Assembly (NCBI RefSeq): GCF_025639805.1
Contig: NZ_CP106735.1
Location: 496,001-560,000 of the forward strand
DNA: 64,000 nucleotides
Source of the DNA: Reichenbachiella carrageenanivorans
GTDB lineage: Bacteria; Bacteroidota; Bacteroidia; Cytophagales; Cyclobacteriaceae
Reading direction: 5' to 3'
The notes below the pieces were generated by a model. The model saw nothing but the letters and a program-made list of their open reading frames with translations. It did no database searches and was not told the DNA's origin. Position 1 is the stretch's first letter. Each line of letters begins with the position of its first letter. The translations under genes were made by a program, and so were the position numbers. Positions 28,361-57,760 of this stretch are shown one piece after another.

Positions 28361-28476
28361 TTCAAGTTATTTATATTCTTCCTGTTCTACTTCACATAGA
28401 TAAGGGTTATGGTATCCTTTAGTCAAAAAAATCAATGGATAGTTGCTGCGCACAGGTGTGTAATTTATATTTGATC
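28361..28476. promoter_or_regulatory. Divergent control region between dehydratase and LacI genes
   Basis: This 116-bp AT-rich gap must hold both the leftward operon promoter and the rightward lacI-type promoter. On the plus strand, TTG (28443-28445), 20 bp, then TATATTTG (28466-28473) matches the Bacteroidota -33/-7 pattern. It would start transcription almost at the ATG at 28477, implying a leaderless mRNA or a coincidence. The imperfect dyad AAGGGTTAT/GTATCCTTT near 28403-28423 (6 of 9 positions pair) is a weak operator candidate. No clear minus-strand promoter was found. Confidence 0.4.
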
Positions 28477-29542: not shown

Positions 29543-31063
29543 TCATTGTATTTTATCAAAAGGAGACAAATACTCCGCCTTTGGGTTGGTTTCGTTAAAC
29601 TTGACCATCAGCTCATATACATTAGGTATTTGCTGTTTAAACCGCTCCAAGATATCTGATGAGATATTTTTCTTAGAAAAAGGCACCACCTTCACAAATT
29701 CCTGATTTTGTCCCGCCTGACGTCCATATTTATAATCATATGTAAAATTGCCCTGCTTATCTGTCTGGATATGCTGATTGGTCTGATTAGGCACACTAAT
29801 ATAAAACTCACTGTTTTCTATACGATTAGTTTCACTAAACAATGCCGACTCCTGCAAATGAGCAAACAACTCTCTGGCTGTATTCACAGCAGGATCTACC
29901 AATGTAATATGCTCCACCATATATGACCGATAAATCAATTGCCCCTCCTGATTTTGATAATTATACAGTTCTGTGAGCACCTTACTGATTTCTTCGGTAA
30001 GATAAGGATAATGCGTACAGCCTAGGATGATGGTTTTCAACTGGTTTGATGATTCTGATTTTCTGATTTTCTCTAATAGAGTTACCAAATGATATCGAAC
30101 GTAGTTTTCAGCATCGTTGATCTGCATAATGGAGCAGTCATCAGCACTGGCAGCATCACAAAGCATCTTGCCAGCATCATAGTCAAAGTTATAAATATCT
30201 AATAGTGTCTTATCTATTTTTAAATCACCAGACAAATCTGGGCCTTTATATGATTCTCTTGGGGTTTTCAGTCCTCTCACAAAGTAATTAGCATCCTCAT
30301 CTACGGCTTCTGCGATACCAACTCCCCCTTGATCAAACACCTCTATATGCCCCGTATAGCCTAGCTCTTTGATATACTTATCCAGAGCACTTTTATAGCC
30401 TTTTGAGGCTACTGTCCCTGCTGTGGCTAGTACGCCAACAATACCATTTTCGTCTTGTCCGAACAGCTCCAAGGCACCACGCACTCCTGCATCAATAACG
30501 CCAATAACCTTTACATCCGAATGAGCCATTTGCAAAAAATCATCTAAATCACTCTTTCCATAAGCTGTGGCTGTATTACAAGCTACCACAATGGCCTTCA
30601 CAGGATCTTTGTCCGATTGATAAACAGAATCCTCTGGTCCGGTGTAATATTTATTGCCTAATAAAAACTGAGCATCTTTGATGATATGTTCTTTTAGCAA
30701 ATCCACTTTTCCTGCATTCGAGTAATTCCCATAAGGCATATTGGCTTGATCCCCTAAGTAGATAAAAGACTCTCCTGCAAAATCTTGCACTCCGTCTGCT
30801 CCCAACGCATGGCTTTCCCCTCCATATTCATCAAAATTCACTATGGCCTTGAGTACAGTCAACCCTCCTGTGCCAGAATCAAATACTCCTATAGGAAGGC
30901 TTTTCCTATTCGCAGGATAATTCTCAAAATCGATATGATAGAAGCTTTTTTCATCACCTATAATCGTACGTCGTATATCTGTATCAACTGGTGAATTAGG
31001 ACTCTGACAAGCAAAAACCAGCCCTACTAAAAACAATAAAAAGTGTGGTTTAAATATTCTCAT
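29543..31063 (-). CDS. Exported lipoprotein homologue of glutamate racemase
   Basis: Cytosolic glutamate racemases (MurI) have about 270 residues. This protein has 506 and begins with a lipoprotein signal (lipobox VFAC, Cys19). The catalytic parts are intact: VFDSGTGGL (60-68), GDQANMPYG (104-112), ACNTAT with Cys162 and LGCTHYP with Cys349. The extra length lies in insertions around 76-100, 140-155 and 255-325 and in a C-terminal extension of about 110 residues. It should interconvert D- and L-glutamate, or a related amino-acid derivative, outside the cytoplasm. It lies at the end of an operon with a D-aminoacylase homologue and a glutamate-type symporter, which suggests nutrient salvage rather than cell-wall synthesis. 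Confidence 0.82.
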   Translation of the reverse strand: MRIFKPHFLLFLVGLVFACQSPNSPVDTDIRRTIIGDEKSFYHIDFENYPANRKSLPIGVFDSGTGGLTVLKAIVNFDEYGGESHALGADGVQDFAGESFIYLGDQANMPYGNYSNAGKVDLLKEHIIKDAQFLLGNKYYTGPEDSVYQSDKDPVKAIVVACNTATAYGKSDLDDFLQMAHSDVKVIGVIDAGVRGALELFGQDENGIVGVLATAGTVASKGYKSALDKYIKELGYTGHIEVFDQGGVGIAEAVDEDANYFVRGLKTPRESYKGPDLSGDLKIDKTLLDIYNFDYDAGKMLCDAASADDCSIMQINDAENYVRYHLVTLLEKIRKSESSNQLKTIILGCTHYPYLTEEISKVLTELYNYQNQEGQLIYRSYMVEHITLVDPAVNTARELFAHLQESALFSETNRIENSEFYISVPNQTNQHIQTDKQGNFTYDYKYGRQAGQNQEFVKVVPFSKKNISSDILERFKQQIPNVYELMVKFNETNPKAEYLSPFDKIQ

Positions 31064-31081
31064 GATTGATATAGTGTCAAA

Positions 31082-31510
31082 TTATTTATGAAACAACCTA
31101 TTGATATCTTTGAAGGCTTTAAACTCTAGCGCATTGCCTTCTGGGTCTAAAAAAAACATAGTAGCCTGCTCGCCTGGGAGGCCTTCGAACCTAATGCACG
31201 GTTCTATCAAAAAAGTAATTTGCAGTGATTTAAGACGATCGGCCAGCTTGTTCCATTCTTCCCACGACAGCACCACACCAAAATGCGGTACAGGCACCTG
31301 CTTACCATCTACTGGATTGCGTTGCTGATCGGCATTTGCAGGAAGAGCAGGTACTTGATGAATGACCAACTGATGACCATAAAAATCAAAATCCACCCAT
31401 TTGCTATCGCTACGGCCTTCGGTACAAGACATTGTTTCCCTATAAAATTCTCGACACTTATCAAGATCAACTACAGGAATGGCTAAGTGAAAAGGTCTAA
31501 TATCGCTCAT
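31082..31510 (-). CDS. VOC-superfamily protein (glyoxalase/dioxygenase fold)
   Basis: The protein has 142 residues from the ATG at 31510 (MSDIRPFHLAIPVVDL). A longer frame upstream adds 47 basic, unconserved residues and runs into the transporter gene. The vicinal-oxygen-chelate fold is shown by FHLAIPVVDLDKCREFY, a HFGVVLS strand with a metal-type histidine, and the C-terminal FFLDPEGNALEFKAF with the conserved glutamate. His8, the histidine in HFGVV and the Glu in LEFK could bind a metal. Substrate is unknown. It lies between the symporter and racemase genes. Confidence 0.8.
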   Translation of the reverse strand: MSDIRPFHLAIPVVDLDKCREFYRETMSCTEGRSDSKWVDFDFYGHQLVIHQVPALPANADQQRNPVDGKQVPVPHFGVVLSWEEWNKLADRLKSLQITFLIEPCIRFEGLPGEQATMFFLDPEGNALEFKAFKDINRLFHK

Positions 31511-31543
31511 ATTCAGTGTTTTTTTACTTTTTAAAACCGCAAT

Positions 31544-31568
31544 CCCCAAGCTCAAATAGAGCTTGAGG
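31544..31568 (-). terminator. Intercistronic hairpin after the symporter gene
   Basis: CCCCAAGCTC (31544-31553) and GAGCTTGAGG (31559-31568) form a 10-bp stem on the minus-strand RNA (one G-U pair) with a 5-nt loop, 28 nt past the symporter stop. The T-run is only four bases and lies several bases downstream, so at most it would be a weak terminator or attenuator before the VOC and racemase genes. Confidence 0.4.
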
Positions 31569-31595
31569 CATTGCTTGTTTTGGGTTAATGTAGTT

Positions 31596-32888
31596 TTAAA
31601 TACTTTTAGGCTGTTCTGCGTGCGCCACCACCATCGTAACAGTAGCATCACCTGTCACATTCACGGTAGTTCGGCACATATCTAGCAGGCGATCTGGTGC
31701 CACAATCAGTGCAATCCCCGCCGCAGGTACTCCGATAGATTCCAATACGATGACCAGCATAACCATCCCTGCTCCTGGCACTCCAGCCGACCCCACAGAC
31801 GCCAGCGTAGCTGTAAGTACAATCATGAGCTGACTACCAATAGATAACTCCATACCTAAAGCCTGAGCAATGAATACAGCAGCTACACTTTGATAGAGAC
31901 TGGTACCATCCATGTTGATGGTAGCACCTAGCGGAAGCACAAAACTGGCTACCTCCTCTGGTACCTTGAGGTTTTGCTCTAAACAATCCATCGTAACAGG
32001 AAGTGTCGCCGAGCTAGAACTGGTGCTAAATGCAAGCAATTGAGCTGGTCGTATACCACGAAAAAAATCGGCATACTTTATTTTGGTGAAAACCATAAGT
32101 ACAGAAGGGTAAACCAATAAGATCATAGCTCCTAGGCCTAACAATACAGTCGTGACATACCACATCAAAGCATAGAGCAGGTCAAATGCTTTGGCAGCAT
32201 CGGTACCTGCCAGCTCTACAATCAGCGAAGCAATCAAAGCAAACACACAGTACGGAGCCACTTGCATGATGTAGTGTACCAGCTTAATAATGATGTCATT
32301 GAGACCATCAAAAAAAGCAATTACAGGTGTCCCTTTTTTCTTTGGTACTTCGAGCAAGGCAATACCTGCCGCTATAGCAAAAAGTACTATTTGTAACATC
32401 ATCTTGTTGTCGGAAGCCGCTGAGATGATATTGGTCGGTATCAGTTTGACTATTGGCTGTAGCGGCCCTTCACTTTTCAACTCAGATGCCGAATCCGCTT
32501 TCTTTTCTACCTCTTTAGCATAGAGAGACATCAGGTCATCCCGAGTCTCTACTGAGAGCTTTTCACCAGGTTTCATCACATTCACCGCCAGCATACCAAG
32601 GCTGGTAGCCAGTACTGTAGTCGCCAGATATAAACCGATCGTTTTAGCTCCCATTCGCGATAGCTTTGAGATATCACCCAAATTAGAAACACCCACGATG
32701 AGCGAAGCCAATACCAACGGTACTGCGATCATTTTCAGGGCATTGACAAACAGTGTACCAAAGGGCTTGATATAGTAAATCGTAAACTCTGGAGGCCACT
32801 GACAGATAATGCTCAGCACACCAAACAACAAGCCTAAAGCCAGCCCTAAAATGATTTTTATATGTAAGGGTAATTTTCTCATGGTCAA
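31596..32888 (-). CDS. Dicarboxylate/amino acid:cation symporter (DAACS, GltP-like)
   Basis: The 430-residue inner-membrane protein imports glutamate, aspartate or C4-dicarboxylates with protons or sodium. DAACS landmarks are IAVPLVLASLIVGVSNL in the N-terminal half, the serine-rich hairpin STSSSSATLP, the NMDGT motif, a second hairpin SVGSAGVPGAG, and APDRLLDMCRTTVNVTGD at the end, where Asp and Arg contact the substrate. An unusually long hydrophilic segment (about 110-150, rich in Glu and Lys) lies between helices 3 and 4. It follows the D-aminoacylase homologue by 9 bp. The neighbours favour glutamate as substrate. Met3 (32882) is an alternative start. Confidence 0.9.
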   Translation of the reverse strand: MTMRKLPLHIKIILGLALGLLFGVLSIICQWPPEFTIYYIKPFGTLFVNALKMIAVPLVLASLIVGVSNLGDISKLSRMGAKTIGLYLATTVLATSLGMLAVNVMKPGEKLSVETRDDLMSLYAKEVEKKADSASELKSEGPLQPIVKLIPTNIISAASDNKMMLQIVLFAIAAGIALLEVPKKKGTPVIAFFDGLNDIIIKLVHYIMQVAPYCVFALIASLIVELAGTDAAKAFDLLYALMWYVTTVLLGLGAMILLVYPSVLMVFTKIKYADFFRGIRPAQLLAFSTSSSSATLPVTMDCLEQNLKVPEEVASFVLPLGATINMDGTSLYQSVAAVFIAQALGMELSIGSQLMIVLTATLASVGSAGVPGAGMVMLVIVLESIGVPAAGIALIVAPDRLLDMCRTTVNVTGDATVTMVVAHAEQPKSI

Positions 32889-32897
32889 TTATTATAT

Positions 32898-34466
32898 CTA
32901 CTTATTTGCTGTTTTTCTCAATACCTGACCAGACAAGGCACCTGTGTACATCCCCTGTTCAATCGTCAGTTGTCCGTTTACAAAGGCATATATGATCCCT
33001 GAAGACATTTTTTCTGGATCTACAAAGTCTGCCAACGCCTTGTAGTTTTTTGCATCCCAAACCAATACATCTGCTTTGAATCCTTCTTTTAACACCCCAC
33101 GCTCAGGTATGCCAAACGTCTGAGCAACTAAGCCTGAACTACGGTGCACAAATTCCTCAAGAGACAGAATCGGATCTTCGAGCACGAAGCGTTCATACTT
33201 CTCAGGAAAACTGGCATATTTTCTTGGGTGCCCTTTGGTACCATCAGAGCATGTCATCACCCAAGGTTGCTGCATAAAATTCTTAATGTCCGTTTCATTC
33301 ATATTGAAAGAAGCTACTCGTGCACCACCATTGCGTAGAATATACAAGACGGTTTCTTCAGGGCTCATTTGGAGTTCCTCAGCTATTTGTTTGATGTTTT
33401 TGGCAATGAATTTTTCTTCCCAGCAATCGGCCGTGATCAATAAAGCTTCTGCACCACCTCTTCTTCTTAAATTTTCATTTAACTCCGCTCTGATTTTTGG
33501 AAGTAGGCGTTCATCTATAAGTCTATTTTGATAGGCTTCTTTACCATCTGCCATCACCCAACGGTTGAGCAGTGCATTGCCTAGGTGTGTACCAGAAGCC
33601 CGCCACGGATACTGATCAGCCGTCACTAAAACACCAGACCTTTGTGCATTTTCTATCAGATCAATTACTTCTTGGCTTTTTCCCCATACATCTACGCCAA
33701 GTGCCTTGATGTGCGCTATATGCACAGGCACTCCCGCTTCTTTTCCGACCGTAATGGCTTCGTCTATTGCCGCTACCAAACCAATATTATAGGTGCTTTC
33801 ATCTCGAATATGGCTTTCATATAGCCCGCCATATGGTTTAACAACGGCTGCCAGAGCTGATACTTCATCTGTTTTAGAAAAACTCCCAGGAGCGTAGTAC
33901 AACCCTGCTGATAGCCCAAAAGCACCTTCCTTCATCCCTTGATCGACCAACAGCTTCATTTGTGCCAGTTGTGCTGAATCTGGCCGTTCATCTTTGCTGC
34001 CCAACACGGCCTCTCTTACCGTCCCATGACCGACTAAAAATGCAGTATTGGTACCTATGCCATTGGCGAGTAGTACTTCACTTATACGATCTACGTTATA
34101 TGGTCCTTCACCATCATTCCCATTCATTACGGTAGTCACTCCTTGGGTCAGGTAATTCAAATTCTGACGTCTAGACAGACTCTTTAAGTCTCCAATACTG
34201 TGGGTATGTGGATCTATAAAGCCCGGAGAAACGATAAGACCTCTGGCATCAACAATTGTTTTTGCGCTAATATGCGAACCCAGATTCTGGTCTACATGGA
34301 CTATTCGATCTCCTATAATGGCAAGATCTCCGACATAGGCTGCCCGTCCAGTACCGTCTACAATGGTGCCTCCTTTGATCCAAACCTCTACATTTATGCT
34401 TTTGAAAGAAAAAAAGAAAAACAAGCAGACCAATACAGCCAGAGTTATTCCGATAAGATATTTCAT
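32898..34466 (-). CDS. Exported N-acyl-D-amino-acid deacylase (D-aminoacylase family)
   Basis: This 522-residue amidohydrolase is preceded by a very hydrophobic N-terminus (residues 5-21) that acts as signal peptide or anchor, which is unusual for a usually cytoplasmic family. Metal-binding residues are DPHTHS (His87, His89), a GHG motif (HGTVREAVLG), ESHIRDES, HIAHIKALG, and the D-aminoacylase signature MTCSDGTKGHPR near 405. It hydrolyses N-acyl-D-amino acids, or possibly dipeptides with a D residue, outside the cytoplasm. It lies between an M14 carboxypeptidase and a glutamate symporter. Confidence 0.88.
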   Translation of the reverse strand: MKYLIGITLAVLVCLFFFFSFKSINVEVWIKGGTIVDGTGRAAYVGDLAIIGDRIVHVDQNLGSHISAKTIVDARGLIVSPGFIDPHTHSIGDLKSLSRRQNLNYLTQGVTTVMNGNDGEGPYNVDRISEVLLANGIGTNTAFLVGHGTVREAVLGSKDERPDSAQLAQMKLLVDQGMKEGAFGLSAGLYYAPGSFSKTDEVSALAAVVKPYGGLYESHIRDESTYNIGLVAAIDEAITVGKEAGVPVHIAHIKALGVDVWGKSQEVIDLIENAQRSGVLVTADQYPWRASGTHLGNALLNRWVMADGKEAYQNRLIDERLLPKIRAELNENLRRRGGAEALLITADCWEEKFIAKNIKQIAEELQMSPEETVLYILRNGGARVASFNMNETDIKNFMQQPWVMTCSDGTKGHPRKYASFPEKYERFVLEDPILSLEEFVHRSSGLVAQTFGIPERGVLKEGFKADVLVWDAKNYKALADFVDPEKMSSGIIYAFVNGQLTIEQGMYTGALSGQVLRKTANK

Positions 34467-34476
34467 GAGTTGTTGA

Positions 34477-35742
34477 TTACAAATCTGATTGTAAGAGAAT
34501 CTTTATTAATTCTTGAGCTGAGACCGAACCTATGGTTTGAATTTCGTCTCTTGGGGTACTATCACCTATTTCATAAGTAATACCCTCCGCTCCAAACTGC
34601 GTATAGAACCACCCTTTGGTGACAGGAGTGCCCAAACCAGCCGCGCTTTCATTGGCATGGTATCCCTCTATTTGATTTTCCAAGCTAGCAAACCATTGAT
34701 TCCTCAACCAAGGAATGGTCTGTACAGAAATCTTATCGGCATCCAAAGTATAATAGACATCATGGAAAGTAGAATGAAAATCGAGACCTAAGATTACCTG
34801 TGCCTTGAGACTATCCACAGCATTGGCCAAGTGATTTGCCACCAGGCGAGTCTCTGGCTGACGGTAGTAGGCCCAATCTCGATTGAGATCCACCCCGCCA
34901 GAATTGTGTCTCCAGTGTCCCAAATCCACGCCATCAGGATTGATCAATGGGTAAACAAATACTTGATATTCTTCCAAGAATTCATCAATCTGATCGGATT
35001 GGAGCAAGCCCTCAATAAAAGCTTGCATGGCGAGATATCCCGTTACTTCTGGGGGGTGCTGTCTACTCAAGACAACAATCATTTTCTTGCCTTTTGGATC
35101 GCCTTCCTTGATTTGCAACCAGGGAATTTGACGACCAAGAGCTGATCGGCCTATGGTCTCGTAGGTGACAAGTTCAGATTCTGAAATCGTCTCGCACCAT
35201 TGCAGCCCCATTTTAGCATCTAAGACTTCCTGAGCAGCTACCCAAAGCGTATCCGAAGACACCTCTAACTTGAGCGTAGTCATCTGGCTAGCAGAATCGT
35301 ACAAAATACGAGCGGAATCTAACAAAGACCATGTCACTCCATCGTGACTGAGCTTTGGGTAAAACCGATGCTTTCCAGTGGGGTATTCCAAGGTCACATA
35401 TTGCTCAGAGGCTTCTTTTCTCCACAATTTGAATGCGTACCATGCACTCTGATTTATAGGTTCGTTTTCAGGCATTATCGTAGCGTAAAATGAACTGTCG
35501 CTGATCTGCCTAAAATTATTGAGCCGTGCACCATCAAACAGATTGCTTGCATAAAGCCCAGCCGCGGTGGCATATACTTTCTTTTCTTGATACGCTATAG
35601 TTTTAGAATGGGTATCGACTGGCTTAGGAAAATCGTAGGTACTTGCTCCCTTTTGGGAAACACTACACCCCGCTCCAATCGACACACACGCCAATCCATA
35701 AACTATATAAACCAATACACCATATCCAATTTTAATTCTCAT
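34477..35742 (-). CDS. Lipoprotein M14 zinc carboxypeptidase (CCP/AGBL-like)
   Basis: The 421-residue protein has a lipoprotein signal (GAGC, Cys26; Cys19 is an alternative). A beta-sandwich (about 45-180) precedes the M14 catalytic domain. Zinc ligands are His229 and Glu232 (HPPE) and His323 (DFHS), with catalytic Glu391 (TYEIGD); VDLNRDW (284-290) supplies the substrate-binding arginine. The N-terminal sandwich plus M14 arrangement resembles cytosolic carboxypeptidases that remove glutamates, but here it is exported. It could trim peptides or gamma-linked glutamate oligomers. It is cotranscribed with the D-aminoacylase homologue (10-bp gap). Confidence 0.85.
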   Translation of the reverse strand: MRIKIGYGVLVYIVYGLACVSIGAGCSVSQKGASTYDFPKPVDTHSKTIAYQEKKVYATAAGLYASNLFDGARLNNFRQISDSSFYATIMPENEPINQSAWYAFKLWRKEASEQYVTLEYPTGKHRFYPKLSHDGVTWSLLDSARILYDSASQMTTLKLEVSSDTLWVAAQEVLDAKMGLQWCETISESELVTYETIGRSALGRQIPWLQIKEGDPKGKKMIVVLSRQHPPEVTGYLAMQAFIEGLLQSDQIDEFLEEYQVFVYPLINPDGVDLGHWRHNSGGVDLNRDWAYYRQPETRLVANHLANAVDSLKAQVILGLDFHSTFHDVYYTLDADKISVQTIPWLRNQWFASLENQIEGYHANESAAGLGTPVTKGWFYTQFGAEGITYEIGDSTPRDEIQTIGSVSAQELIKILLQSDL

Positions 35743-35776
35743 AATTCTAATTGTCTGCGATAACCCTAGACCTGTG

Positions 35777-36229
35777 TTATTCCTTGCTCAGTATGAAAGT
35801 GTAAGAACCCGTAATTCCTTTGCTACGAGCTCCTAATGGCTCGTTGGTATCATTGGTAAATGTGATTGTAAGTACGGTATTGTCTTGAGCCAATGCGACT
35901 GCAATGGGTCGTTCATCTTCATTCAATACAATTTGTCCGAAATTGCCATCTACATATTGCCAAGTCCCTTGTGGATAAATGATATTGTTGGGATCTCCCT
36001 CTGCGTAATAGCCGAATTGCTCGGTAAAGAAGATGGAAAAATCTTGATAGTCTAAAGTAATATCATTGCCATCTCTCAGCACTTGAGAATTTTCACCAAG
36101 CACCCAAGTACCTGCGATTAGCCTACTGTGCTCCTCCTCTTCTGGTATATTCGACGAGTCGTCTCCACAGCCGACAAGCGCACTAAGCAAAACCAATAAT
36201 AGTATGTGTATAGGATTAATTTTTTTCAT
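35777..36229 (-). CDS. Small lipocalin-like lipoprotein
   Basis: The 150-residue lipoprotein (start at the ATG at 36229; lipobox LVGC at residue 21) is not recognised as a defined family. After an acidic linker the sequence has GTWVLGENSQ, a YPQGTWQYVDG strand, VLTITFTN and a terminal SYTFILSKE. This alternation of short strands is characteristic of small lipocalin-like beta-barrels common in Bacteroidota lipoproteins. It lies between the M14 gene and a T9SS cargo gene. No function can be assigned. Confidence 0.7.
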   Translation of the reverse strand: MKKINPIHILLLVLLSALVGCGDDSSNIPEEEEHSRLIAGTWVLGENSQVLRDGNDITLDYQDFSIFFTEQFGYYAEGDPNNIIYPQGTWQYVDGNFGQIVLNEDERPIAVALAQDNTVLTITFTNDTNEPLGARSKGITGSYTFILSKE

Positions 36230-36259
36230 CTCTTTCAATTTTTTTGATTATTTAGATAA

Positions 36260-37519
36260 CTACTGTTTGACTAGTTTGCCACTTCTTACTACTTGCTGTC
36301 CGTCGGACACTGTATATAAGTACACACCCCGCTCTAGAGCAGAAGCAGACTGATTATTGATTCCTACTTCGATAGACCTATTCAAGACCTCTTCTCCACT
36401 CAATGTGAAAATTTTGAGATTCAGCCTGCTATTCATCGAATTTCTAATGCTTAGAGAATTAACAATTGGATTGGGATACAAATTGATGTCTTTGGGCTCG
36501 CCTATGCCTACTGAGGTAATACTTCCATCAGACAAGGGAAAGGTGGCTTTTAAGGCATTTGCCATTTTTTTCCACTCGTCCACATCTTTTCTCAATCGAT
36601 CGTACTCTTGCTCAATGTGTATAAATCTACCGTTGGCAGTTTCTGCATTCGACATACAAGGATCTGTGCCTTGGTTGATGTACCTTCCTTGGGTATTGGT
36701 AAACCCCAATAGTTTACTCCAGCTGTTGTTGGTCGAGTTTTCGAATGTAAGTAGGTTGTCTTCTACTTTCAGGTTCGTCTCTATATCTGGCATTTTATTG
36801 CTTCCCACTATGGTACGCCCCCCCAAACTCAAGATAGCACTTGGATCTGAAGAGGTTTTATCAAACCCATGAAGCTGAATAAAGTAATTGCTTTCGGCAT
36901 CATTCAAAAGTTCGGTCACTATCTGAAAAGCTCCATTGGTATTGTGAGCCACGTCCGAAATTCTATATTTTTCTTCATAGCCACAGACACTTGTAGTCCC
37001 TGAGCAACTTGATGAAGCCAAACTATTACAACGGTCGGTACCTGTCAAAAAGAACGCCCTAGCACCCATTTCTCTAAAGACATATGCTCCCTCAACACCT
37101 GTATTTCGATCTTTAATGGCATGTGGACTTTGGATTACTACTTGTGCCCGCGCAGGTTTATCATTGAAGATATAAGTCCCCCAATAATTGTCAGAATCTG
37201 CAAGCTTGCGTAGCATATACAAATTGAGTGACTTACCTCCATCTGTATCCTTTACATTGACCAATTCATACCCTAACCCAGTAGCTGCAAGAGCTGCCTC
37301 TGCATACTCTTTGGAGATCACCTTATCTACCAAAGTCTGCCATTCAGATTTATCTTCACCATCTAGCGATGTAAAAACATTGGTAGATGCCCCTGGCAAG
37401 GCGGCTACTTCTGCATACACGAGGTCGTAAATGTTCGCATCGATTGTTTCCTGGGCTGCCATAGGCAGCCAGGAAACAATCGATACTATAACACATATTA
37501 TCTTTGTGATCCTTTTCAT
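36260..37519 (-). CDS. T9SS-secreted putative zinc hydrolase, poly-gamma-glutamate-hydrolase-like
   Basis: The 419-residue protein has a signal peptide (cleavage near MAAQ), a catalytic-looking core and a T9SS C-terminal sorting domain (about 345-419, LYPNPIVNSLSI, ERGVYLYTVSDG). The core shows QSPHAIKDRNTG (His133), FIQLHGFDK (His217) and FIHIEQEYDRLRKD (Glu303). This order, SPH then HG then an acidic helix start, resembles that of poly-gamma-glutamate hydrolases and M14-related zinc amidases; the similarity is by eye and the identification is tentative. It starts in a TAATG overlap with the upstream gene. A 21-bp near-perfect hairpin covers its signal-peptide codons. Confidence 0.6.
   Translation of the reverse strand: MKRITKIICVIVSIVSWLPMAAQETIDANIYDLVYAEVAALPGASTNVFTSLDGEDKSEWQTLVDKVISKEYAEAALAATGLGYELVNVKDTDGGKSLNLYMLRKLADSDNYWGTYIFNDKPARAQVVIQSPHAIKDRNTGVEGAYVFREMGARAFFLTGTDRCNSLASSSCSGTTSVCGYEEKYRISDVAHNTNGAFQIVTELLNDAESNYFIQLHGFDKTSSDPSAILSLGGRTIVGSNKMPDIETNLKVEDNLLTFENSTNNSWSKLLGFTNTQGRYINQGTDPCMSNAETANGRFIHIEQEYDRLRKDVDEWKKMANALKATFPLSDGSITSVGIGEPKDINLYPNPIVNSLSIRNSMNSRLNLKIFTLSGEEVLNRSIEVGINNQSASALERGVYLYTVSDGQQVVRSGKLVKQ
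37439..37484 (-). repeat. 21-bp near-perfect hairpin within signal-peptide codons
   Basis: The left arm (37439-37460) and right arm (37464-37484) pair over 21 bp with one bulged G and a 3-nt loop. The core arm is ATCGATTGTTTCCTGG. It covers nucleotides 36-81 of the coding sequence at 36260-37519. In mRNA it would form a very stable stem just inside the initiation region. Possible roles are translational control, mRNA stability, or a relic of template-switch mutation. Confidence 0.75.
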
Positions 37520-41364: not shown

Positions 41365-41386
41365 TGTGATCGTATTTAAGTTCTAA

Positions 41387-42796
41387 TTATTTATTCACCT
41401 CAGTGACAAGTACCAAATCAGGTAATGGTGTGGGTATATTCGAATTAGTATTGATCTCATTGGCTGGATAGATAAACCTTTCTGGTTGCTGCGAAGCAGA
41501 AGGCGAGTTTAAAGGAATAGCTACAGCAATGTCACTATCAGATTTTCGTAAACGTCTCGCATCGTCAAATGGCATATAAGTCAAAAAACCTGACACATAT
41601 CTCTCTTCGATAATTTCCCTAAGCAGAGCACGCGACTGAGCTATGCCGTCTGCATTTTCTATTCCTCCAGGTAGAAAATCCGTAGAAAGGTATGGATTAT
41701 AAACGTGCGAAAGAGAAGCGAAATTATCATTCAAAAATTCACCCCCATTTAGCCAAGCTCTCAATTCGTTGAGGTGTGCCAGTCCTGTAGCCATATCTAT
41801 CGTACGAGTACCTGCTTCTGCCAAAATGAGAATGTTTTCTTCATAAGAAATCAACCGTTGTGGTTCGTACATATCGGCAATCCCAGTACTCCCAGGTGCT
41901 ATTTTATAATACTCATACCTAGCTCTTTCGTCTGTTTTAGCGTTATTTCTGCTATTGACTCCAGACGGATTCAGCACGTCCATAAGATAACTCGATGCCG
42001 TGCCAATGTCGCCACTTCTGGTACTTTGCATGAGTGTATAGAATGTGTTTTTATTACCATTCTGATCTTCGTCTCCAAACGGCGTGAAATACATCGTATT
42101 TTCTGCCGACACAATACCCTTTTGAGCTGCAGCATATGCAGATTCATAATCCTTCATATGCATATAATATCGGGCTTTCAGTGTCCATGCAGCCTCTAGC
42201 CATTTGTCTCTATCGCCACCATAATAAATGTCTTCGGCCAAAGTCACGCCGGAAAAAGACGCTTCGAAGTTTTCTATAGCCAGATCCAAAAGCACTTGTA
42301 AATTTTGAAAAACACTAACCTGAGACTCATAATCAGGCTCATCGATCTCCTCATTATAGGCTTGTGTGTAGGGCACATCTCCAAAAAGAGAAGCACATGT
42401 GCCTACCGAATGTGCTTCGAGTACTTGACTAATACCTTGCAATAGCACATTTCTATCGCCCAACTTAGACAGGATCAATCGTACCTGAGGCACTACGCCC
42501 TGATAGGCTCGTGTCCAAGTTGTATTTCCTGTAGTAGATGCAAAATTGTAACTATAAAGCGCTCCATAGTCTACCGCATAACCAACCATCTGTCCACTAT
42601 AAAGGGCGGAAATTCTCAATGCGTGCCCCTGCTGTACCATGATGTTTGATAACTGAGCTCCTCTCAGCAATGCTTCTGGTGGTACTGCGTCTGGGTCTAA
42701 TTCTGTCAGATCTTTATTAATATCATCTACCAAATCGGTACAGGAAAAAGCAGAAAATAGGATAGATATAAGTAATAGATATTTAATTCGTTCCAT
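41387..42796 (-). CDS. SusD-like lipoprotein (SusD_RagB_2/SusD-like type)
   Basis: The 469-residue outer-membrane lipoprotein (lipobox FSC, Cys19) belongs to the SusD superfamily by CTDLVDDINKDLTELDPDAVPPEALLRGA, the tetratricopeptide-like helices (YGGDRDKWLEAAWTLKARYYMHM) and a C-terminal RLRKSDSDIAVAIPL-type segment. It is the extracellular substrate-binding partner of the SusC encoded 20 bp upstream. The SusD_RagB_2-type helix pattern recurs in SusD proteins that bind peptides or other non-starch ligands, but ligand prediction from sequence is unreliable. Confidence 0.92.
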   Translation of the reverse strand: MERIKYLLLISILFSAFSCTDLVDDINKDLTELDPDAVPPEALLRGAQLSNIMVQQGHALRISALYSGQMVGYAVDYGALYSYNFASTTGNTTWTRAYQGVVPQVRLILSKLGDRNVLLQGISQVLEAHSVGTCASLFGDVPYTQAYNEEIDEPDYESQVSVFQNLQVLLDLAIENFEASFSGVTLAEDIYYGGDRDKWLEAAWTLKARYYMHMKDYESAYAAAQKGIVSAENTMYFTPFGDEDQNGNKNTFYTLMQSTRSGDIGTASSYLMDVLNPSGVNSRNNAKTDERARYEYYKIAPGSTGIADMYEPQRLISYEENILILAEAGTRTIDMATGLAHLNELRAWLNGGEFLNDNFASLSHVYNPYLSTDFLPGGIENADGIAQSRALLREIIEERYVSGFLTYMPFDDARRLRKSDSDIAVAIPLNSPSASQQPERFIYPANEINTNSNIPTPLPDLVLVTEVNK

Positions 42797-42815
42797 GATT
42801 TCGTTGATTTTCTAA

Positions 42816-45800
42816 TTAATAAGTGATTTTGACCGAGAATAGGACTGATCTCGAACTAGGATTGGTGAAATACTCAGTTCCAAAACCATTGTTCACTCCG
42901 AATTGACTGGTTTCAGGATCTATGCCGATGATATCTGTCCAAAGCGCGAGATTCCTGCCTGTCGCTGTAAATTCTACACTACTCAATTTAAGCGTCTCCT
43001 GTAGCCAAGGTGTATTGAGGGTATAGCCCAAGGAAACTTCTCTCAACTTGGTCCAGCTCGCATCTTCACTAATTAACAATTCATAAATAACACCAGAGCC
43101 AAATCCACCCCCTTTGGTAGTGTACCATGCCTCATCTAATAGCACTGGGCCTGCTCCAAAGTCTGCCACGTTGCCTCTCACTGTAGTGCCGGCAGTAAAA
43201 AGCTGACCGTTTAGATTGCGAACATCTTGCCCCAAGGTTACGTCATTGCCCACATCTGCATGTGTTCCAAACCCATAAAGCACCATTCTGGTCCGGTCTG
43301 CAAACTGCCCACCATGAGAATGCTCAAAAAGTAGGTTAAGCTTTAGGTTTTTCCAACGCAAATCCAAGGCAGCTCCTCCCCTCCATTCTGGGTTTGGGTC
43401 GCCCACTACACCGCCCAAAACGTCGGTCAAAGGAAAACCGTTAGCATCTAACGCTAATGTACCATCCTCATTTCTCTCCGCCTTGTTGGCCCAGAGCACT
43501 CCTAGTGGCTCTCCTACCACAGCCCTCGAGCTGATGGCTTCTCCTGTTAGATTAACAGATTCTGCCCCGTACAGGCTCAATACCTCATTTCTGTTTCTGT
43601 TAAAATTGGCACTCACGTTTATCGACCAATCAGGTGTTCTGAGCAACTGATAGTCTAATTCTAGCTCGACCCCTCTGTTCTCCATCGAGCCTGCATTCAT
43701 GTATATATTGGTAAATCCAGTAGATGCAGGCTTAGCGATATCGAGAAGTATGTCTTCTATTTTATTGTAATAGTAGGTGAAAGACACGTTTAGCTTATCT
43801 TTTAAAAACCTAAAATCCGCTCCTGCTTCGTATTCGGTTTTCACCTCAGGCCTTAGGTCATCATTTCCCTGATCATCGTCTAACCTGAAGCCTCCACCGA
43901 AGACGGATACATCCAAGGCATCGTTATAAGTACTGACTGAAAAACCGCCATCAGTAAGTGTTTGCGATCTGTGAGCCGACGGTCTGATACCTACTTTACC
44001 CCAAGACCCTCGAATTTTACCAAACGATAAAATATTTTGGTTATTAAATATGGGCAACCGTGTAAACTGCCAAGCGACGTCGGTAGAAGGATAAAAGAAG
44101 TTGTCTGCGATAGTAGATGCTGCTTCTAGTGCACCATTCACATTTACAAATACCTGATCATAGAGATCTACTGAAGCCTGTGCGTATCCTCTGTTTGATC
44201 TGGTAATAAATGCCGTCTTGCTAAGACTGGAAAAATTCTGATTGGTGACCAACTCAAAAGTGGCGAAATCTGTATTGGCCTCAAAGTTTTCCACATGCAT
44301 ATAAAAAGACTCTCCTTCACTTTGAGTGATATTCCATCCCAATGTGGTTTGCAATCCAATGTCTTTATTTAGATTAAAAGACATTTTTGTAATCGCATCA
44401 AAATTCAATTGTTTCCTTGTGAGTATATCTTGTGCCTGAACTCCGATTTTTCTACCTGCTGACGCAGAATTTTTCGGAAAGAAATATTCACGAGTATCAG
44501 TGAAAACATCCGCTCCTCCTCTAAATGTAAACCCTAACCAATCTAACGGATCTACATTGATCTGAGGGGTAATAGTAAAACGATCCACTTGAGTAGTGGC
44601 CAACTGCTCGTCTGTAGCCCACTGTGGATTGGTATATATTGGGTCTTCATTTTGGCCGAGCTGATTTCTATATGCCCGCTGCCTTCGTTCATATATCCCT
44701 CCCAATCCGTCATAATACGTTCCTATATAATCGGCATTGTTAAAATCTGGGGCAGACCTGAGCAAACCCACATACATACCCGACACATTTGAATTTTGCT
44801 GAATTCTGTTCGAATTGGTATTGGTATAAGAAGCCTTGGCACTCATGCTCAACCAATCATTGAATCGGGTATCTCCATTGAGCCGAACATTATACCTGTT
44901 GTAATCGCTATTACGAATGATGCCCTCTTGATCCAATTTTCCGAAACTGAAAAAGAAAGTTGATTTGTCTCCACCTCCACTGATGGATAGATCTTGTTGA
45001 AAAAAGTGTCCTCTTTGAAAAACTTGATCAAAATTTCGGTCTACATAAGTTTCCTGCGAATTTTTGGAGACAATTGGATAGTACAGTGTGCCATCGGCAG
45101 CCTCAAAATATTCGCCAAAGAAATCGACTTCATCTGGCGTTCCTGACCGATCGGCAATCCTATCTCCCCATGAGTTTCGAGCGGTAGGATCCCAGGCACC
45201 ATTAGCCCCTTGACCATAAGTGCTCTGCATCGGGTGCTTTACATTTATTTCATCTAATGAATAGGTTGCATTGTATTCGATTTTTGGCCTACCTGACTTC
45301 CCTCTTTTGGTGGTAATTACGATCACACCATTAGCCGCTCTAGACCCCCAAAGAGACGCTGCCGATGCACCTTTCAGTACTTGCATCGATTCTATATCGT
45401 TGGGATTTATATCGTTGAGTCGGGACTGCTGGGAAGTACCTCCTGAAGAACCACCTGTGATTCCATTTCCAGCACCATTTATACTGTTATTCGCCAATGG
45501 CACTCCATCTACAATAATCAAAGGCTGAGTTGATCCTCCGATCGTATTTTGCCCTCTGATCTGGATAGAAGCACCAGCTCCTGGGTCTCCATTGCCTCTG
45601 GTTACTTTAACACCTGCGACTTTGCCAGACAAACTATTGATAATGGTGGTCTCTCCAGATCGCAATAGTTCTTCGGTCTTTACTACAGAAGAGGTAGAGC
45701 CCAAGTTGTCCTTTTTTTGCTCAAATCCAAGTGCACTGACAACAACCTCTTCTAACTCGTTTACATTTAGAATGAGGCTCACATCCACACGGGTACGTGT

Positions 45801-46058
45801 GCCTACAAATACCGTTTGTGGTTCATACCCCACAAAGCTGACCTTGATCGAGGCATTTTCGTCTGGCACTTCGATAGAAAAATTTCCATCAATATCACAT
45901 ATTACACCAACAGCCGAATTTTCTAGCTGCACGGTAGCCCCTATTAAAGGGCCACTGTTGTCATATACTGTACCTGTCACCTTATGCTGTGCTAGCAACG
46001 ATTGGTGACAAGTCAGAATAAGACAAACCAATAAAATTTTAAGTAACGTTCTATCCAT
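42816..46058 (-). CDS. SusC/RagA-family TonB-dependent transporter lacking an STN domain
   Basis: The 1080-residue outer-membrane transporter begins with a signal peptide (cleavage near LLAQ), then a carboxypeptidase-like domain (about 25-95, VTGTVYDNSGPLIGATV), a TonB-box-like EEVVVSALG, and a plug with IQIRGQNTIGG and IIVDGVPLANN. The barrel ends SVKITY. Despite sitting downstream of a sigma factor and FecR, it has no N-terminal STN signalling domain, which such systems often carry on the receptor. A 380-bp gap separates it from fecR. It forms the uptake pair with the SusD encoded 19 bp downstream. Confidence 0.94.
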   Translation of the reverse strand: MDRTLLKILLVCLILTCHQSLLAQHKVTGTVYDNSGPLIGATVQLENSAVGVICDIDGNFSIEVPDENASIKVSFVGYEPQTVFVGTRTRVDVSLILNVNELEEVVVSALGFEQKKDNLGSTSSVVKTEELLRSGETTIINSLSGKVAGVKVTRGNGDPGAGASIQIRGQNTIGGSTQPLIIVDGVPLANNSINGAGNGITGGSSGGTSQQSRLNDINPNDIESMQVLKGASAASLWGSRAANGVIVITTKRGKSGRPKIEYNATYSLDEINVKHPMQSTYGQGANGAWDPTARNSWGDRIADRSGTPDEVDFFGEYFEAADGTLYYPIVSKNSQETYVDRNFDQVFQRGHFFQQDLSISGGGDKSTFFFSFGKLDQEGIIRNSDYNRYNVRLNGDTRFNDWLSMSAKASYTNTNSNRIQQNSNVSGMYVGLLRSAPDFNNADYIGTYYDGLGGIYERRQRAYRNQLGQNEDPIYTNPQWATDEQLATTQVDRFTITPQINVDPLDWLGFTFRGGADVFTDTREYFFPKNSASAGRKIGVQAQDILTRKQLNFDAITKMSFNLNKDIGLQTTLGWNITQSEGESFYMHVENFEANTDFATFELVTNQNFSSLSKTAFITRSNRGYAQASVDLYDQVFVNVNGALEAASTIADNFFYPSTDVAWQFTRLPIFNNQNILSFGKIRGSWGKVGIRPSAHRSQTLTDGGFSVSTYNDALDVSVFGGGFRLDDDQGNDDLRPEVKTEYEAGADFRFLKDKLNVSFTYYYNKIEDILLDIAKPASTGFTNIYMNAGSMENRGVELELDYQLLRTPDWSINVSANFNRNRNEVLSLYGAESVNLTGEAISSRAVVGEPLGVLWANKAERNEDGTLALDANGFPLTDVLGGVVGDPNPEWRGGAALDLRWKNLKLNLLFEHSHGGQFADRTRMVLYGFGTHADVGNDVTLGQDVRNLNGQLFTAGTTVRGNVADFGAGPVLLDEAWYTTKGGGFGSGVIYELLISEDASWTKLREVSLGYTLNTPWLQETLKLSSVEFTATGRNLALWTDIIGIDPETSQFGVNNGFGTEYFTNPSSRSVLFSVKITY

Positions 46059-46438
46059 TTTTTTTTGTTTACATATATTAATTGAATGATGAAATCATTG
46101 GCCTACTAGCCATGGTAAGTAATCCTAATCTGATACTCAGAATGGGTAAAATGTATCTAGGGGAAAACCCAGTTTGCCTTCTAGCTCTGACCAAAAGATT
46201 ATGCGAGTTGTGCTTTCCTACGATGCTGAAATTGCTATTTCTAATTTGCCTTAGCCGATATTGCGACGGTGATCCACTCTCTTGTATTTTAGTCGAAAAA
46301 GAACTTGGCCTCTCATAACCACAAGACGTGGTCATGTTTTGGGTACTTCCCTTAGTTCTATTTTCTAAAGGAGTCATTCCGACAACCTGTCTGAATGATT
46401 GTAAAAATTGGAAAGTGAAGATATTCGCCATCAATTGT
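46059..46438 (-). other. 380-bp gap between fecR and SusC with an open frame of doubtful status
   Basis: Between the FecR stop and the SusC start the minus strand carries a 134-codon open frame (46078-46482) that overlaps the end of fecR. Its product is rich in Arg and Ser and has no signal peptide. One segment, SFRQVVGMTPLENR, matches the last helix-turn-helix motif of AraC regulators over about 14 residues, but the rest does not. It may be a decayed regulator fragment or a chance frame. No STN domain remnant was recognised. The short sequence before the SusC ATG is a run of nine A residues. Confidence 0.3.
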
Positions 46439-47410
46439 TTATTTAATATGAATGATCTGATTGTCGTGATGAACTTGAGCATCTAGAGATATCGCTATGG
46501 CCGATAGCAAAACATCAAGGTCGTCTAGGGGTAGATTACCCGACAATTTTTTGCCTTGATATGCGTCTGCAAATACTACAGATACGCCATATAAATCCTC
46601 CATGGTTTGTGCCACTTCGGCTGTAGGTGTCATGTGCAAATGAAGCTTTCTACTGAGCCATGCGGTGTCATCTTCGGCTCCCTGGTCGGCCTTTTCAAAT
46701 TTGCCATTTGGCAAATAGGAGCATGTATTTCCAGGTTTCAGAGTCGCCTTGAGTCTATCCGAAACCAGCACATTTACCTTACCTTCTATCAAGGCTATAT
46801 CGGTACGCTGCCTTCTGGATCGGACAGCAAAGGAAGTGCCCAATACTTCTACTGTCAGCTCATTGGCATGTACTTCGAATTTTGGTCTGGTAGCCAGCGG
46901 TTTTTTGGTAACCTCAAAAAAAGCTTCTCCACCGATGAGGCGGACAGACCTACTGGAGGACTCATCCCAATGGGTGAAGACCTCTAAACTAGAATTTGCC
47001 TGTAAGGTGATTTGAGTTTGGTCTGCAAGCACAAAAGTCTTTTGCTCACCATATCCCGTAGCATAGATCATAGTCGCTGGCTCCGACCATTGGAACAACC
47101 CCCATGCAAACAAGAGAAGTAAAGAAATAGAAGCGGCATATCTCCAAACTGCTGGCTGTGCCCAAAATGGCTTCGTTTTACGATTTGAAAAGGCCCCAAC
47201 TGGAATCTGCGTTATCTGTGTAGTGGATAAAGGCTTAAAGGCAAGTACAAGTAACTTCGCCTGATCCTTGTAAGGTCGATATTCGCTATGCTGCTCAAAC
47301 CATGTCTCCCAGTAGGCAGCGTGCTCACCACGCCAAACCCAGTCCTGAAATTTTTCATCAGACGCTAAGAAACTTATCGGATCGTTCGTATGGATGTTTT
47401 TGTCTGTCAT
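46439..47410 (-). CDS. FecR-type anti-sigma factor
   Basis: The 323-residue inner-membrane protein has a cytoplasmic N-terminal region (about 1-88) that binds the sigma factor, a transmembrane segment around 92-107 (SISLLLLFAWGLF) and a periplasmic FecR domain. The latter shows GEQKTFVLADQTQITLQANSSLEV, GEAFFEVTKKP, VEVLGTSFAVRS and a final DUF4974-type domain (GKKLSGNLPLDDLDVLLSAIAISL). It should hold the sigma factor inactive until a substrate signal arrives from the outer membrane. The usual partner receptor carries an STN domain; the adjacent SusC does not. Confidence 0.94.
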   Translation of the reverse strand: MTDKNIHTNDPISFLASDEKFQDWVWRGEHAAYWETWFEQHSEYRPYKDQAKLLVLAFKPLSTTQITQIPVGAFSNRKTKPFWAQPAVWRYAASISLLLLFAWGLFQWSEPATMIYATGYGEQKTFVLADQTQITLQANSSLEVFTHWDESSSRSVRLIGGEAFFEVTKKPLATRPKFEVHANELTVEVLGTSFAVRSRRQRTDIALIEGKVNVLVSDRLKATLKPGNTCSYLPNGKFEKADQGAEDDTAWLSRKLHLHMTPTAEVAQTMEDLYGVSVVFADAYQGKKLSGNLPLDDLDVLLSAIAISLDAQVHHDNQIIHIK

Positions 47411-47520
47411 TTGAAAAGTAGACAGACAACTATCCTTTTTGTACTGAAAAAAAATAAAAAAAAATTATCTATCTCAGCTTTTCATCACAATCGCATCATG
47501 ATTTTTAACCAGCCTCTGTA

Positions 47521-48132
47521 TCACCAATGAGCTAATCCACCCAACACAAGCAATATAATCGACAGTGAACCTTTCATGATTTTCATCGCCTCATAGATAC
47601 AGTTTCTTACAGATTGGTTTCTGATTTTAAGTGATTCTGCGATTTCATCGTATGACATCTCCTGAAAAAACCTGAGATAGATCATTTCTCTCTGTTTTTT
47701 GGTAAGTAGGCTAAGGGCATGCTCTATCTGCCCTCTCCGCTCTTCGTCCAGTTCTTCTGAGATCATCAAATCTTGAACAGACAATGAAGGTTCGAAGCCT
47801 TCGGGGAATTCACCATCGACTGATAATACCTTTTTTTGAGCAGTCAGCTTATCTATAATAATTCTCCTCAAAGCAGAGATCAGATAAGATTTGATGCTTA
47901 ATTTGATATGGATACTGGTACGTTTGTCCCAGACTTTGATAAAAAGGTCTTGAATAGCATCTTCTGTCAGCCCCTCATCTTTGCTGCAACTAAGTCCAAA
48001 ATAATAGAGATTGGTGTACTGTTTTTCATAGATATAGGCCAAGGCCTTCAGGTCTGATTTTGCAACCAACGCCCAAAGAGCAACATCTTCCAACCCCTCA
48101 TAACCATTACTCTCTCTTTGCTGTTTTTTCAT
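47521..48132 (-). CDS. ECF sigma factor (FecI-type)
   Basis: The 203-residue protein has the sigma-70 region 2 (about 25-95, with LTEDAIQDLFIKVWDKR and YLISALRRIIID) and region 4 (about 135-190, ALSLLTKKQREMIYLRFFQEMSYDEIAESLKI). A hydrophobic tail (SIILLVLGGLAHW) is common in Bacteroidota members. It precedes FecR by a 110-bp gap that contains a long A-rich tract. It is the only sigma factor gene in the window and could serve both FecR proteins. It drives the SusC/SusD operon downstream. Confidence 0.95.
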   Translation of the reverse strand: MKKQQRESNGYEGLEDVALWALVAKSDLKALAYIYEKQYTNLYYFGLSCSKDEGLTEDAIQDLFIKVWDKRTSIHIKLSIKSYLISALRRIIIDKLTAQKKVLSVDGEFPEGFEPSLSVQDLMISEELDEERRGQIEHALSLLTKKQREMIYLRFFQEMSYDEIAESLKIRNQSVRNCIYEAMKIMKGSLSIILLVLGGLAHW

Positions 48133-55338: not shown

Positions 55339-55415
55339 GCTCTTTATTTTTCGTATTCTAATGAATACCTCCTTAAAACTATACTTACTTGTCTAATCGT
55401 CATGCAGATTCATGA

Positions 55416-57731: not shown

Positions 57732-57760
57732 ATGTATCGTAGTTTTTGTTTAGGTTGACA

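Follow-up and report, generated by a model that had tools for sequence, protein, structure and literature searches.

The window analysed here is a stretch of 64,000 nucleotides (G000:C1:496001-560000, G000 being the window genome) from the 4.8 Mb genome of Reichenbachiella carrageenanivorans, and the system in question is a run of genes read along its minus strand from position 48132 to 29543, a putative locus for the use of a gamma-glutamyl polymer. The run comprises, in order of reading, genes for an extracytoplasmic function (ECF) sigma factor, FecR, SusC, SusD, a surface protein with LTD repeats, a secreted hydrolase termed SPH, a lipoprotein of 153 amino acids (aa), an M14 carboxypeptidase, a D-aminoacylase-family amidohydrolase termed Dacyl, an SDF-family symporter, a VOC/glyoxalase-family protein and a lipoprotein racemase homologue termed RacLP. 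The co-directional run of ECF sigma factor, FecR, SusC/SusD, two proteins of the type IX secretion system (T9SS), M14 enzyme, D-aminoacylase homologue, symporter and racemase which an earlier note had described was found in full and in the place it had given, all named genes lying on the minus strand. To these are added the VOC/glyoxalase gene, the 153-aa lipoprotein and a second FecR-SusC-SusD set (48222-54111) that adjoins the ECF gene. The features are as follows.

29543-31063, minus strand: RacLP, lipoprotein glutamate-racemase homologue of 506 aa, predicted periplasmic (PF01177, 1.9e-09; TIGR00067, 6e-30, below cut-off)
31082-31651, minus strand: VOC/glyoxalase-family protein (PF00903, 1.7e-06), with a likely ATG near 31510 as judged from the sequence
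31596-32888, minus strand: SDF-family symporter of glutamate/aspartate/dicarboxylate type (PF00375, 5.1e-125; GltP model, 258.5 bits against a cut-off of 638)
32898-34466, minus strand: Dacyl, exported D-aminoacylase-family amidohydrolase (PDB 1m7j, 1.7e-56; 3gip, N-acyl-D-glutamate deacylase, 3.4e-50)
34477-35742, minus strand: lipoprotein M14 zinc carboxypeptidase (PF00246, 2.2e-21)
35777-36238, minus strand: 153-aa lipoprotein without a Pfam match (lipobox CGDDSS)
36260-37519, minus strand: SPH, secreted hydrolase of zinc-amidase fold with a T9SS tail (fold model; TIGR04183, 42.1 bits against a cut-off of 23)
37519-41364, minus strand: LTD protein, T9SS surface protein of 1281 aa with Calx-beta and LTD repeats (PF00932, 2.2e-54; PF03160, 3.9e-32; T9SS tail PF18962, 4e-12)
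41387-42796, minus strand: SusD1, surface lipoprotein lid (PF12771, 9.6e-26)
42816-46058, minus strand: SusC1, TonB-linked outer-membrane transporter (TIGR04056, 616 bits against a cut-off of 368)
46059-46438, no strand: gap of 380 bp in the gap table, likely promoter/leader of the SusC1-RacLP operon
46078-46482: open reading frame without a family, inside/over the FecR1-SusC1 gap, probably spurious
46439-47410, minus strand: FecR1 anti-sigma factor (PF04773, 2e-19)
47521-48132, minus strand: ECF sigma factor (PF08281, 7.8e-12; TIGR02985, 5e-28)
48222-49619, minus strand: SusD2, probable part of the same system (PF12771, 5e-59)
49620-53138, minus strand: SusC2 with an N-terminal FecR_C/STN-like signalling domain, probably of the same system (PF07715, PF13715, PF16344)
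53113-54111, minus strand: FecR2 anti-sigma factor, probably of the same system, with a 26-base overlap with SusC2 (PF04773, 1.9e-16)

A SusC-type transporter, a SusD lipoprotein and an ECF sigma/FecR pair, by which SusC/SusD utilisation loci are recognised, are thus all present. Intergenic gaps from SusC1 to RacLP range from -56 to 34 bp, which makes one operon likely; with the VOC start near 31510 its overlap with the symporter gene gives way to a gap of about 85 bp. Promoter-like sites occurred at chance level (40 vs 43.5 +/- 6.9) and terminator-like sites slightly above it (21 vs 14.2 +/- 3.5), and neither was used as evidence. Both SPH and the LTD protein carry a type IX C-terminal sorting domain; the latter, with four LTD and four Calx-beta stretches, is a candidate substrate-binding or scaffold protein. 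The acidic residues after the lipid Cys of the 153-aa lipoprotein suggest that it sits at the cell surface, and the enzymes of the run are inferred to depolymerise a substrate.

Recurrence of the gene set was followed around relatives of SPH, of which a contig scan gave 124, the best 80 loci being kept (locus labels L0xx, genome labels Gxxx). Partners were counted in 79 loci and among genes of the same co-directional cluster only, L036 being left out on account of a further domain fused to its SPH. SusC was found in 32 clusters, Dacyl in 29, M14 and SusD in 21 each, RacLP in 11 and the SDF symporter in 6, the SusD count being too low, as 11 more unassigned cluster genes match SusD families. 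Wherever RacLP and SPH share a cluster they adjoin one another (11/11), and in all 29 clusters that hold Dacyl and SPH the two are neighbours, directly in 20 and via RacLP alone in the other 9. The loci L056, L061, L065, L077 and L082 of Flavobacteriaceae, together with L060, contain SusC, SusD, mostly one or two M14 genes, Dacyl, RacLP, SPH and SDF, which is the gene content of the window in a different order. The suggestion that the same gene order would be met in other Bacteroidota therefore stands for the set, which recurs among the 79 SPH loci, and not for the order, which in these examples differs from that of the window.

In a tree built from 80 SPH domains, the partner of the window is a Cyclobacteriaceae row (99/83), two Saprospiraceae rows joining them with less certainty (92/90), and the window falls outside the flavobacterial group holding the other 31 Dacyl/RacLP rows. 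At face value, this position means that the set came together with SPH on more than one occasion, or that it travelled; the end branch of the window is long (1.01), which leaves its precise position uncertain. At least four changes of the Dacyl/RacLP label are required by well-supported branches, some of these changes being losses within the flavobacterial group. Many flavobacterial rows are closely related and locus counts are not event counts. A chance reading of unrelated neighbours as one system, in which an ordinary SusCD locus lies beside housekeeping amino-acid genes, draws on the many SusCD loci of Bacteroidota genomes (SusC1 matches 61 stretches in its own genome), but the recurrence of the same families in SPH loci of a different taxonomic order (Flavobacteriaceae) and the unbroken adjacency of RacLP and Dacyl to SPH make it very improbable.

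The fused protein of L036, from Flavilitoribacter nigricans, is 1113 aa long and consists of SPH followed by repeats that are 51% identical over 420 aa to the window LTD protein, a fusion which ties the LTD protein to SPH. A conserved lipoprotein of about 386 aa (L065:3759-4919 and 20 others) is seen in 21 of the 80 SPH loci, usually after SusD; the L065 member has no Pfam match, and the acidic signal suggests a surface binding protein. Downstream of SDF, L060:12738-17067 and L082:12306-16169 share a common run that includes a glutathione-synthetase-like ATP-grasp gene, and the scan holding these genes shows rhodanese, N-formylglutamate amidohydrolase-family and MATCAP (PF08014) matches, with two members each. 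A flavobacterial-type SPH/SusC/Dacyl locus is also present in L103, a metagenome-assembled genome labelled Algicola (Pseudomonadota by label), which may reflect the label, mis-binning or transfer.

The transporters of the window also have relatives in other SPH loci. SusC1 shares 43-51% identity over 836-1086 aa with the SusCs of at least 10 other SPH loci, against 26-34% with near-full-length paralogues of its own genome (SusC2 being the best with 34%, and short N-terminal matches reaching 43%), and SusD1 shares 38-53% with the SusDs of 12 other SPH loci. In a database of SPH loci only, the best matches of SusC2 (48% and 46%) and of SusD2 (46% and 43%) were in L047 and L045, the others shown being at or below 31% for both proteins. 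L045 has the order FecR-SusC-SusD-LTD protein-SPH-gamma-glutamyltransferase. On account of these matches FecR2-SusC2-SusD2 is taken as part of the same system, and the locus probably extends to 54111. The FecR_C/STN-like N-terminal match of SusC2 is absent from SusC1.

Poly-gamma-glutamate is a sticky polymer made by bacteria, with a high content of the mirror-image (D) form of glutamate. It is too large to enter the cell uncut, and most of the utilising isolates of that study were Bacillus, according to passages of PMC11937826. Several neighbours of SPH relatives point to this polymer. In L041, L078 and L093, SPH lies directly 3' of PgsB, PgsC and TIGR04332 genes, all over their curated cut-offs (TIGR04012, TIGR04011, TIGR04332) and with genes that abut or overlap; TIGR04332, named 'poly-gamma-glutamate system protein', we take to be pgsW. 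The pgs-linked SPHs occupy at least two separate places in the SPH tree. A pgsW-like gene (by BLAST) further accompanies SusC, SusD, a racemase homologue and SPH in L075 (1-11194). Gamma-glutamyltransferase is found in 7 of the 80 loci, on the opposite strand in L041, and lies between M14 and Dacyl in two full flavobacterial SusCD-M14-Dacyl-RacLP-SPH-SDF loci; the genes of L045 and L093 exceed the equivalog cut-off. A second kind of racemase homologue, with an N-terminus that looks exported, occurs in 4 of the 80 loci (L041, L075, L086, L093), among them two of the three pgs loci. A whole-genome search of the window genome gave no PgsB match, which makes a self-made polymer unlikely and fits a consumer.

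Beside these genes, L075 also holds a histidine kinase and a sigma-54 response regulator, and its racemase homologue has a signal-like N-terminus. In L041, L066, L078 and L093, DUF6305 and an AstE/AspA-like protein occur with gamma-glutamyltransferase, three of the four also having pgsB-pgsC-pgsW; both proteins are candidate parts of poly-gamma-glutamate metabolism.

The SPH protein itself has its closest named match in Reichenbachiella sp. (55%). A Pfam profile scan returned no family except the secretion tail, a search of the sequence against solved structures matched only the T9SS tail, and the profiles PF05013 (N-formylglutamate amidohydrolase) and PF01520 (Amidase_3) gave no match. PF05908, the phage-type poly-gamma-glutamate hydrolase family, did not match SPH at E<=5 (filters drop most hits above about 0.1) nor anything in the whole genome at E<=0.001, and its profile-profile probability against SPH was 0.3%. 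As the full-length model was less clear owing to the T9SS tail, the catalytic domain was folded alone (residues 22-335), giving a predicted local distance difference test score (pLDDT) of 96.1 and a zinc amidase/carboxypeptidase fold. Structure comparison matched this fold about equally to N-formylglutamate amidohydrolase, MurNAc amidases and poly-gamma-glutamate hydrolases, the matches including PghP, PghL and N-formylglutamate amidohydrolase; Foldseek placed carboxypeptidases and REP34 at the top, a second aligner FGase and amidases, and no family was distinct. In the alignment of SPH relatives H133, D189, H192 and H217 are kept in 80 of 80 rows, D137 is Asp in 75 and Glu in 5, and E303 and R310 are each present in 79 (one gap each). 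Compared by sequence order, H133, D137, H192, H217 and E303 follow the zinc site of PghL given in PMC6506827 in order and nature. In the PF05908 family the zinc ligands are His, Glu and His, with a further His and Glu in catalysis. SPH may be regarded as a candidate polymer-cleaving enzyme. The core resembling poly-gamma-glutamate hydrolases that the earlier note had seen in it agrees with the residue order and with the predicted structure of the 36260-37519 product, which has them among its matches, but not with the family profile, and the structure does not separate it from the MurNAc amidases that act on peptidoglycan. The count of 101 of 291 genomes of the order with a match to SPH was discarded, since almost all of these matches are to the T9SS tail; of those listed, the ones in G000, G009 and G157 alone cover the catalytic part.

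RacLP stands apart from MurI, the MurI-like genes scoring about 37 bits or less against it. It remains below the equivalog cut-off of TIGR00067 (104.5 vs 146.65 bits) and is similar to 1b73 at 4e-15. Its residues D62, C162, C349 and H351, corresponding to the Asp, Cys, Cys and His of the MurI catalytic site, are invariant in 23 aligned sequences (8 from scanned genomes, 9 of the 11 SPH loci, 5 of 120 listed proteins and the window), and the lipobox Cys19 is kept in at least 90%. Relatives of RacLP make up 3431 clusters at E<=1e-60 among 7999 candidates scored, several being called plain 'glutamate racemase' by the sources. A census made irrespective of SPH found RacLP in 9 genomes in all, in sample sets that overlap: G000, G105 and G260 in the order set (291), G000 and G105 in the class set (395), and G000, G105, G708, G717, G723, G769, G969 and G997 in the phylum set (395). 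A small glyoxalase gene follows RacLP directly in L148, with a similar-looking small gene in L149, and the window glyoxalase also adjoins RacLP.

Dacyl scores best with general D-aminoacylases (1m7j, 195 bits), N-acyl-D-glutamate deacylase (3gip, 174 bits) coming somewhat behind, and it lies below the cut-off of NF006560 (172.5 against 340 bits). A GNDG stretch, whose Asp is invariant in 9 aligned sequences, replaces the GNCG of 1m7j, the Cys of which we take to be a metal ligand. Dacyl also matches PpOngB, which has a sister entry named carbohydrate de-N-acetylated protein, so that its family is not confined to D-amino acids. The chain-terminal D-Glu of a gamma-glutamyl chain is an N-acyl-D-glutamate, and an enzyme of D-aminoacylase type could hence release D-Glu; Dacyl is a candidate N-acyl-D-glutamate deacylase or X-D-Glu dipeptidase. 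In M14 the zinc site HxxE...H and the catalytic Glu (H229, E232, H323, E391) are invariant in 9 aligned sequences. A broadly specific scavenging of other peptides, N-acylated or containing D-amino acids, without a dedicated polymer, would agree with the fact that general D-aminoacylases give Dacyl a better score than the enzyme specific for D-Glu does and with a racemase and a symporter that stay under the cut-offs of the specific models; it is nonetheless improbable, since glutamate is what the racemase, the symporter, the gamma-glutamyltransferase and the pgs partners have in common.

In Bacteroidota, lipoproteins of the cell surface are marked by acidic residues that follow the lipid Cys. 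In the Dacyl/RacLP clusters the net charge was taken over positions +2 to +6 from the lipobox Cys, genes without a recognised lipobox being dropped (8 SusD, 9 SPH, 4 of the 386-aa protein, 7 M14, 5 Dacyl and 2 RacLP). The charge was negative in 19/19 SusD, 14/22 SPH and 12/16 of the 386-aa protein, with no positive member in the latter two; it was negative in 0/16 M14 (11 positive), 1/24 Dacyl (17 positive) and 0/9 RacLP (9 positive). Counts within one family are not independent, its members being related, while the families are. SPH and SusD are thus predicted to be sorted to the surface and the racemase, M14 and Dacyl to the periplasm. In the window the N-termini read CTDLVDD for SusD and CQSPNSP for RacLP, that of Dacyl is hydrophobic without a lipobox, and SPH is T9SS-exported.

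Overall, we present a real, recurrent and apparently non-glycan SusCD system. Its gene content, the recurrence of the set, the intact catalytic residues, the partition of lipoprotein signals, the zinc-amidase fold and the linkage of SPH to pgsBC and gamma-glutamyltransferase are computed observations, from which we infer the function of the pathway as a whole. With a probability of about two in three, the locus is built on SusC/SusD for the use of an external gamma-glutamyl polymer that contains D-glutamate, poly-gamma-glutamate being the best-supported substrate and peptidoglycan peptides the main rival. SPH would cut the polymer at the surface, helped by the Calx-beta/LTD protein and the acidic surface lipoproteins; oligomers would be imported by SusC1/SusD1 and probably also by SusC2/SusD2; M14 and Dacyl would release Glu from the oligomer ends in the periplasm, where RacLP would convert D-Glu into L-Glu, and the SDF symporter would carry L-Glu into the cell. 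The ECF sigma factor and FecR would switch the locus on upon substrate binding. This route, from surface cleavage over SusC/D import, trimming and periplasmic racemisation to L-Glu uptake, had been put forward in the earlier note, and it gains support at that same level from the recurrence of the gene set, the pgs and gamma-glutamyltransferase links and the lipoprotein signals. The wider claim is somewhat less secure though still rather probable: that a widespread, unnamed system of Bacteroidota eats poly-gamma-glutamate in the manner of a polysaccharide utilisation locus, by means of a new SPH family of gamma-glutamyl hydrolases found also in pgsBC operons, SusCD, a periplasmic cofactor-independent racemase and an L-Glu symporter.

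A number of observations weigh against poly-gamma-glutamate as the substrate. The linkage to pgsBC is seen in only 3 of the 79 SPH loci, a gamma-glutamyltransferase gene is absent from the window, and in 40 of the 79 SPH clusters SusC, Dacyl/RacLP and pgs genes are all lacking, though some of those contigs are short and a few of the 40 have M14, gamma-glutamyltransferase or SusC at another place in the locus. Other polymers may be the substrates of some SPH relatives, to judge from a sulfatase within the L043 SPH cluster, an endonuclease/phosphatase-family (Exo_endo_phos) gene that precedes SPH in L039 and stretches resembling CBM20/CBM48 in the surface protein of L045. When SPH (34 rows) was compared profile to profile with the phage poly-gamma-glutamate hydrolases (12 rows), the N-formylglutamate amidohydrolases (15) and Amidase_3 (19), no significant link emerged, although the three reference families also miss each other, so that the comparison has little power. 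In the genus, a search of 7 other genomes found no RacLP (1/8 carries it), and among the 9 RacLP genomes Dacyl and a SusC operon lie near RacLP in G000 and G105 alone, within the 9-35 kb covered round each, which argues against a tie of RacLP to poly-gamma-glutamate only.

The neighbours of RacLP elsewhere, some of which resemble genes of cell-wall recycling, lead to the main rival, the use of peptidoglycan, in which SPH would be a surface MurNAc-L-alanine amidase-like enzyme freeing stem peptides from foreign walls, M14 would remove diaminopimelate from gamma-D-Glu, Dacyl would split L-Ala-D-Glu and RacLP would convert the D-Glu. In G708 RacLP is preceded by a BadF-type kinase, a major facilitator superfamily (MFS) permease and a GH3-beta-lactamase protein, the confirmed neighbours being a GH3-beta-lactamase protein in G717 and an MFS permease in G997; the same three kinds of gene adjoin RacLP in L148, with similar, partly checked neighbours in L149 and L147. 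In G105 RacLP occurs with ECF, FecR, SusC, a SusD-looking lipoprotein, M14, GH20 and a beta-lactamase-fold gene and without SPH. These surroundings are the best argument for peptidoglycan as the source of D-Glu in those genomes, and they keep the peptidoglycan explanation alive for the window. Amidase_3 structures, moreover, match the SPH model equally well as or slightly better than poly-gamma-glutamate hydrolases do, and MpaA is a weak relative of M14 (18.3 bits). Set against this, among 25 of 35 families shown for the 56 genes left unassigned in the Dacyl/RacLP-SPH clusters there was no glycosidase, lysozyme, AmpG or MurNAc-amidase family, the gamma-glutamyltransferase family being present; SPH joins pgsBC runs; and stem peptides are small cargo for SusCD. 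Peptidoglycan use is consequently considered unlikely for the window, and poly-gamma-glutamate is retained as the preferred substrate.

The run is flanked by two further loci. On one side, a minus-strand run (2785-28360 and 28435-29499) with an alpha-L-fucosidase (10750-12579) and a sulfatase (19008-20378) lies beside a plus-strand LacI regulator and includes genes for a rhaM-type mutarotase, an MFS permease, short-chain dehydrogenases/reductases (SDRs), Amidohydro_2, FAA-hydrolase and a UxaA-like dehydratase; its gene families suggest a locus for sulfated fucan in which fucose is broken down by a non-phosphorylative pathway. On the other, 54337-63847 contains a PfkB kinase, a chondroitinase-B-family lyase (PF14592, 2e-197), a TIM-barrel isomerase-like protein, a T9SS protein and a 7TMR-DISM/LuxR regulator, and appears to be a second glycan-type locus.

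Should the proposed use of poly-gamma-glutamate hold, the SusCD principle would extend to polyamides in a version dedicated to a D/L-glutamyl homopolymer, the orphan SPH family would gain a substrate, a lipoprotein glutamate-racemase family with thousands of relatives would be explained, and a genetic marker for natural consumers of the polymer would become available. Among the titles listed from the open-licence literature, with word matching that was partly unspecific, none reports a SusCD locus for poly-gamma-glutamate or a lipoprotein glutamate racemase of the periplasm. PghP-like genes across genomes are discussed in PMC4497714, in whose main text 'Bacteroid' is absent, and passages of the RacX racemase paper PMC12838360 and the Cloacimonadota paper PMC13082233 describe no such locus.

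With regard to known enzymes, RacLP keeps the four site residues of the MurI glutamate racemase (Asp, Cys, Cys, His) and differs in being a lipoprotein of about 500 aa with insertions, the MurI-like gene of the genome being a separate one (G000:C1:77579-78016). Dacyl resembles D-aminoacylase and N-acyl-D-glutamate deacylase (1m7j, 3gip) over most of its length but is exported and has GNDG for GNCG. From the phage-type PghP/PghL hydrolases (PF05908, MEROPS M86) SPH is set apart by the missing PF05908 match, its larger size, its T9SS or lipoprotein export and its conserved cysteines. The Bacillus pgsB/pgsC operon with gamma-glutamyltransferase has its likeness in L041, L078 and L093, where pgsB, pgsC, TIGR04332 and gamma-glutamyltransferase accompany SPH relatives, whereas the window genome, with no PgsB match, looks like that of a consumer rather than a producer.

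SusCD loci have been described mainly for glycans. The present locus shares with polysaccharide utilisation loci the assembly of SusC, SusD, ECF sigma factor, FecR, surface enzyme, periplasmic trimming enzymes and inner-membrane transporter in one run, and differs from them in that no glycan-enzyme family was matched in 29543-48132, their place being taken by amide-bond hydrolase families and a racemase. RagAB imports peptides. With RagA/RagB of Porphyromonas gingivalis, a SusCD-type complex implicated in protein uptake according to PMC11817032, the window locus has the SusCD architecture and an apparently non-glycan cargo in common, while its dedicated set for handling D-Glu and its SPH hydrolase distinguish it.

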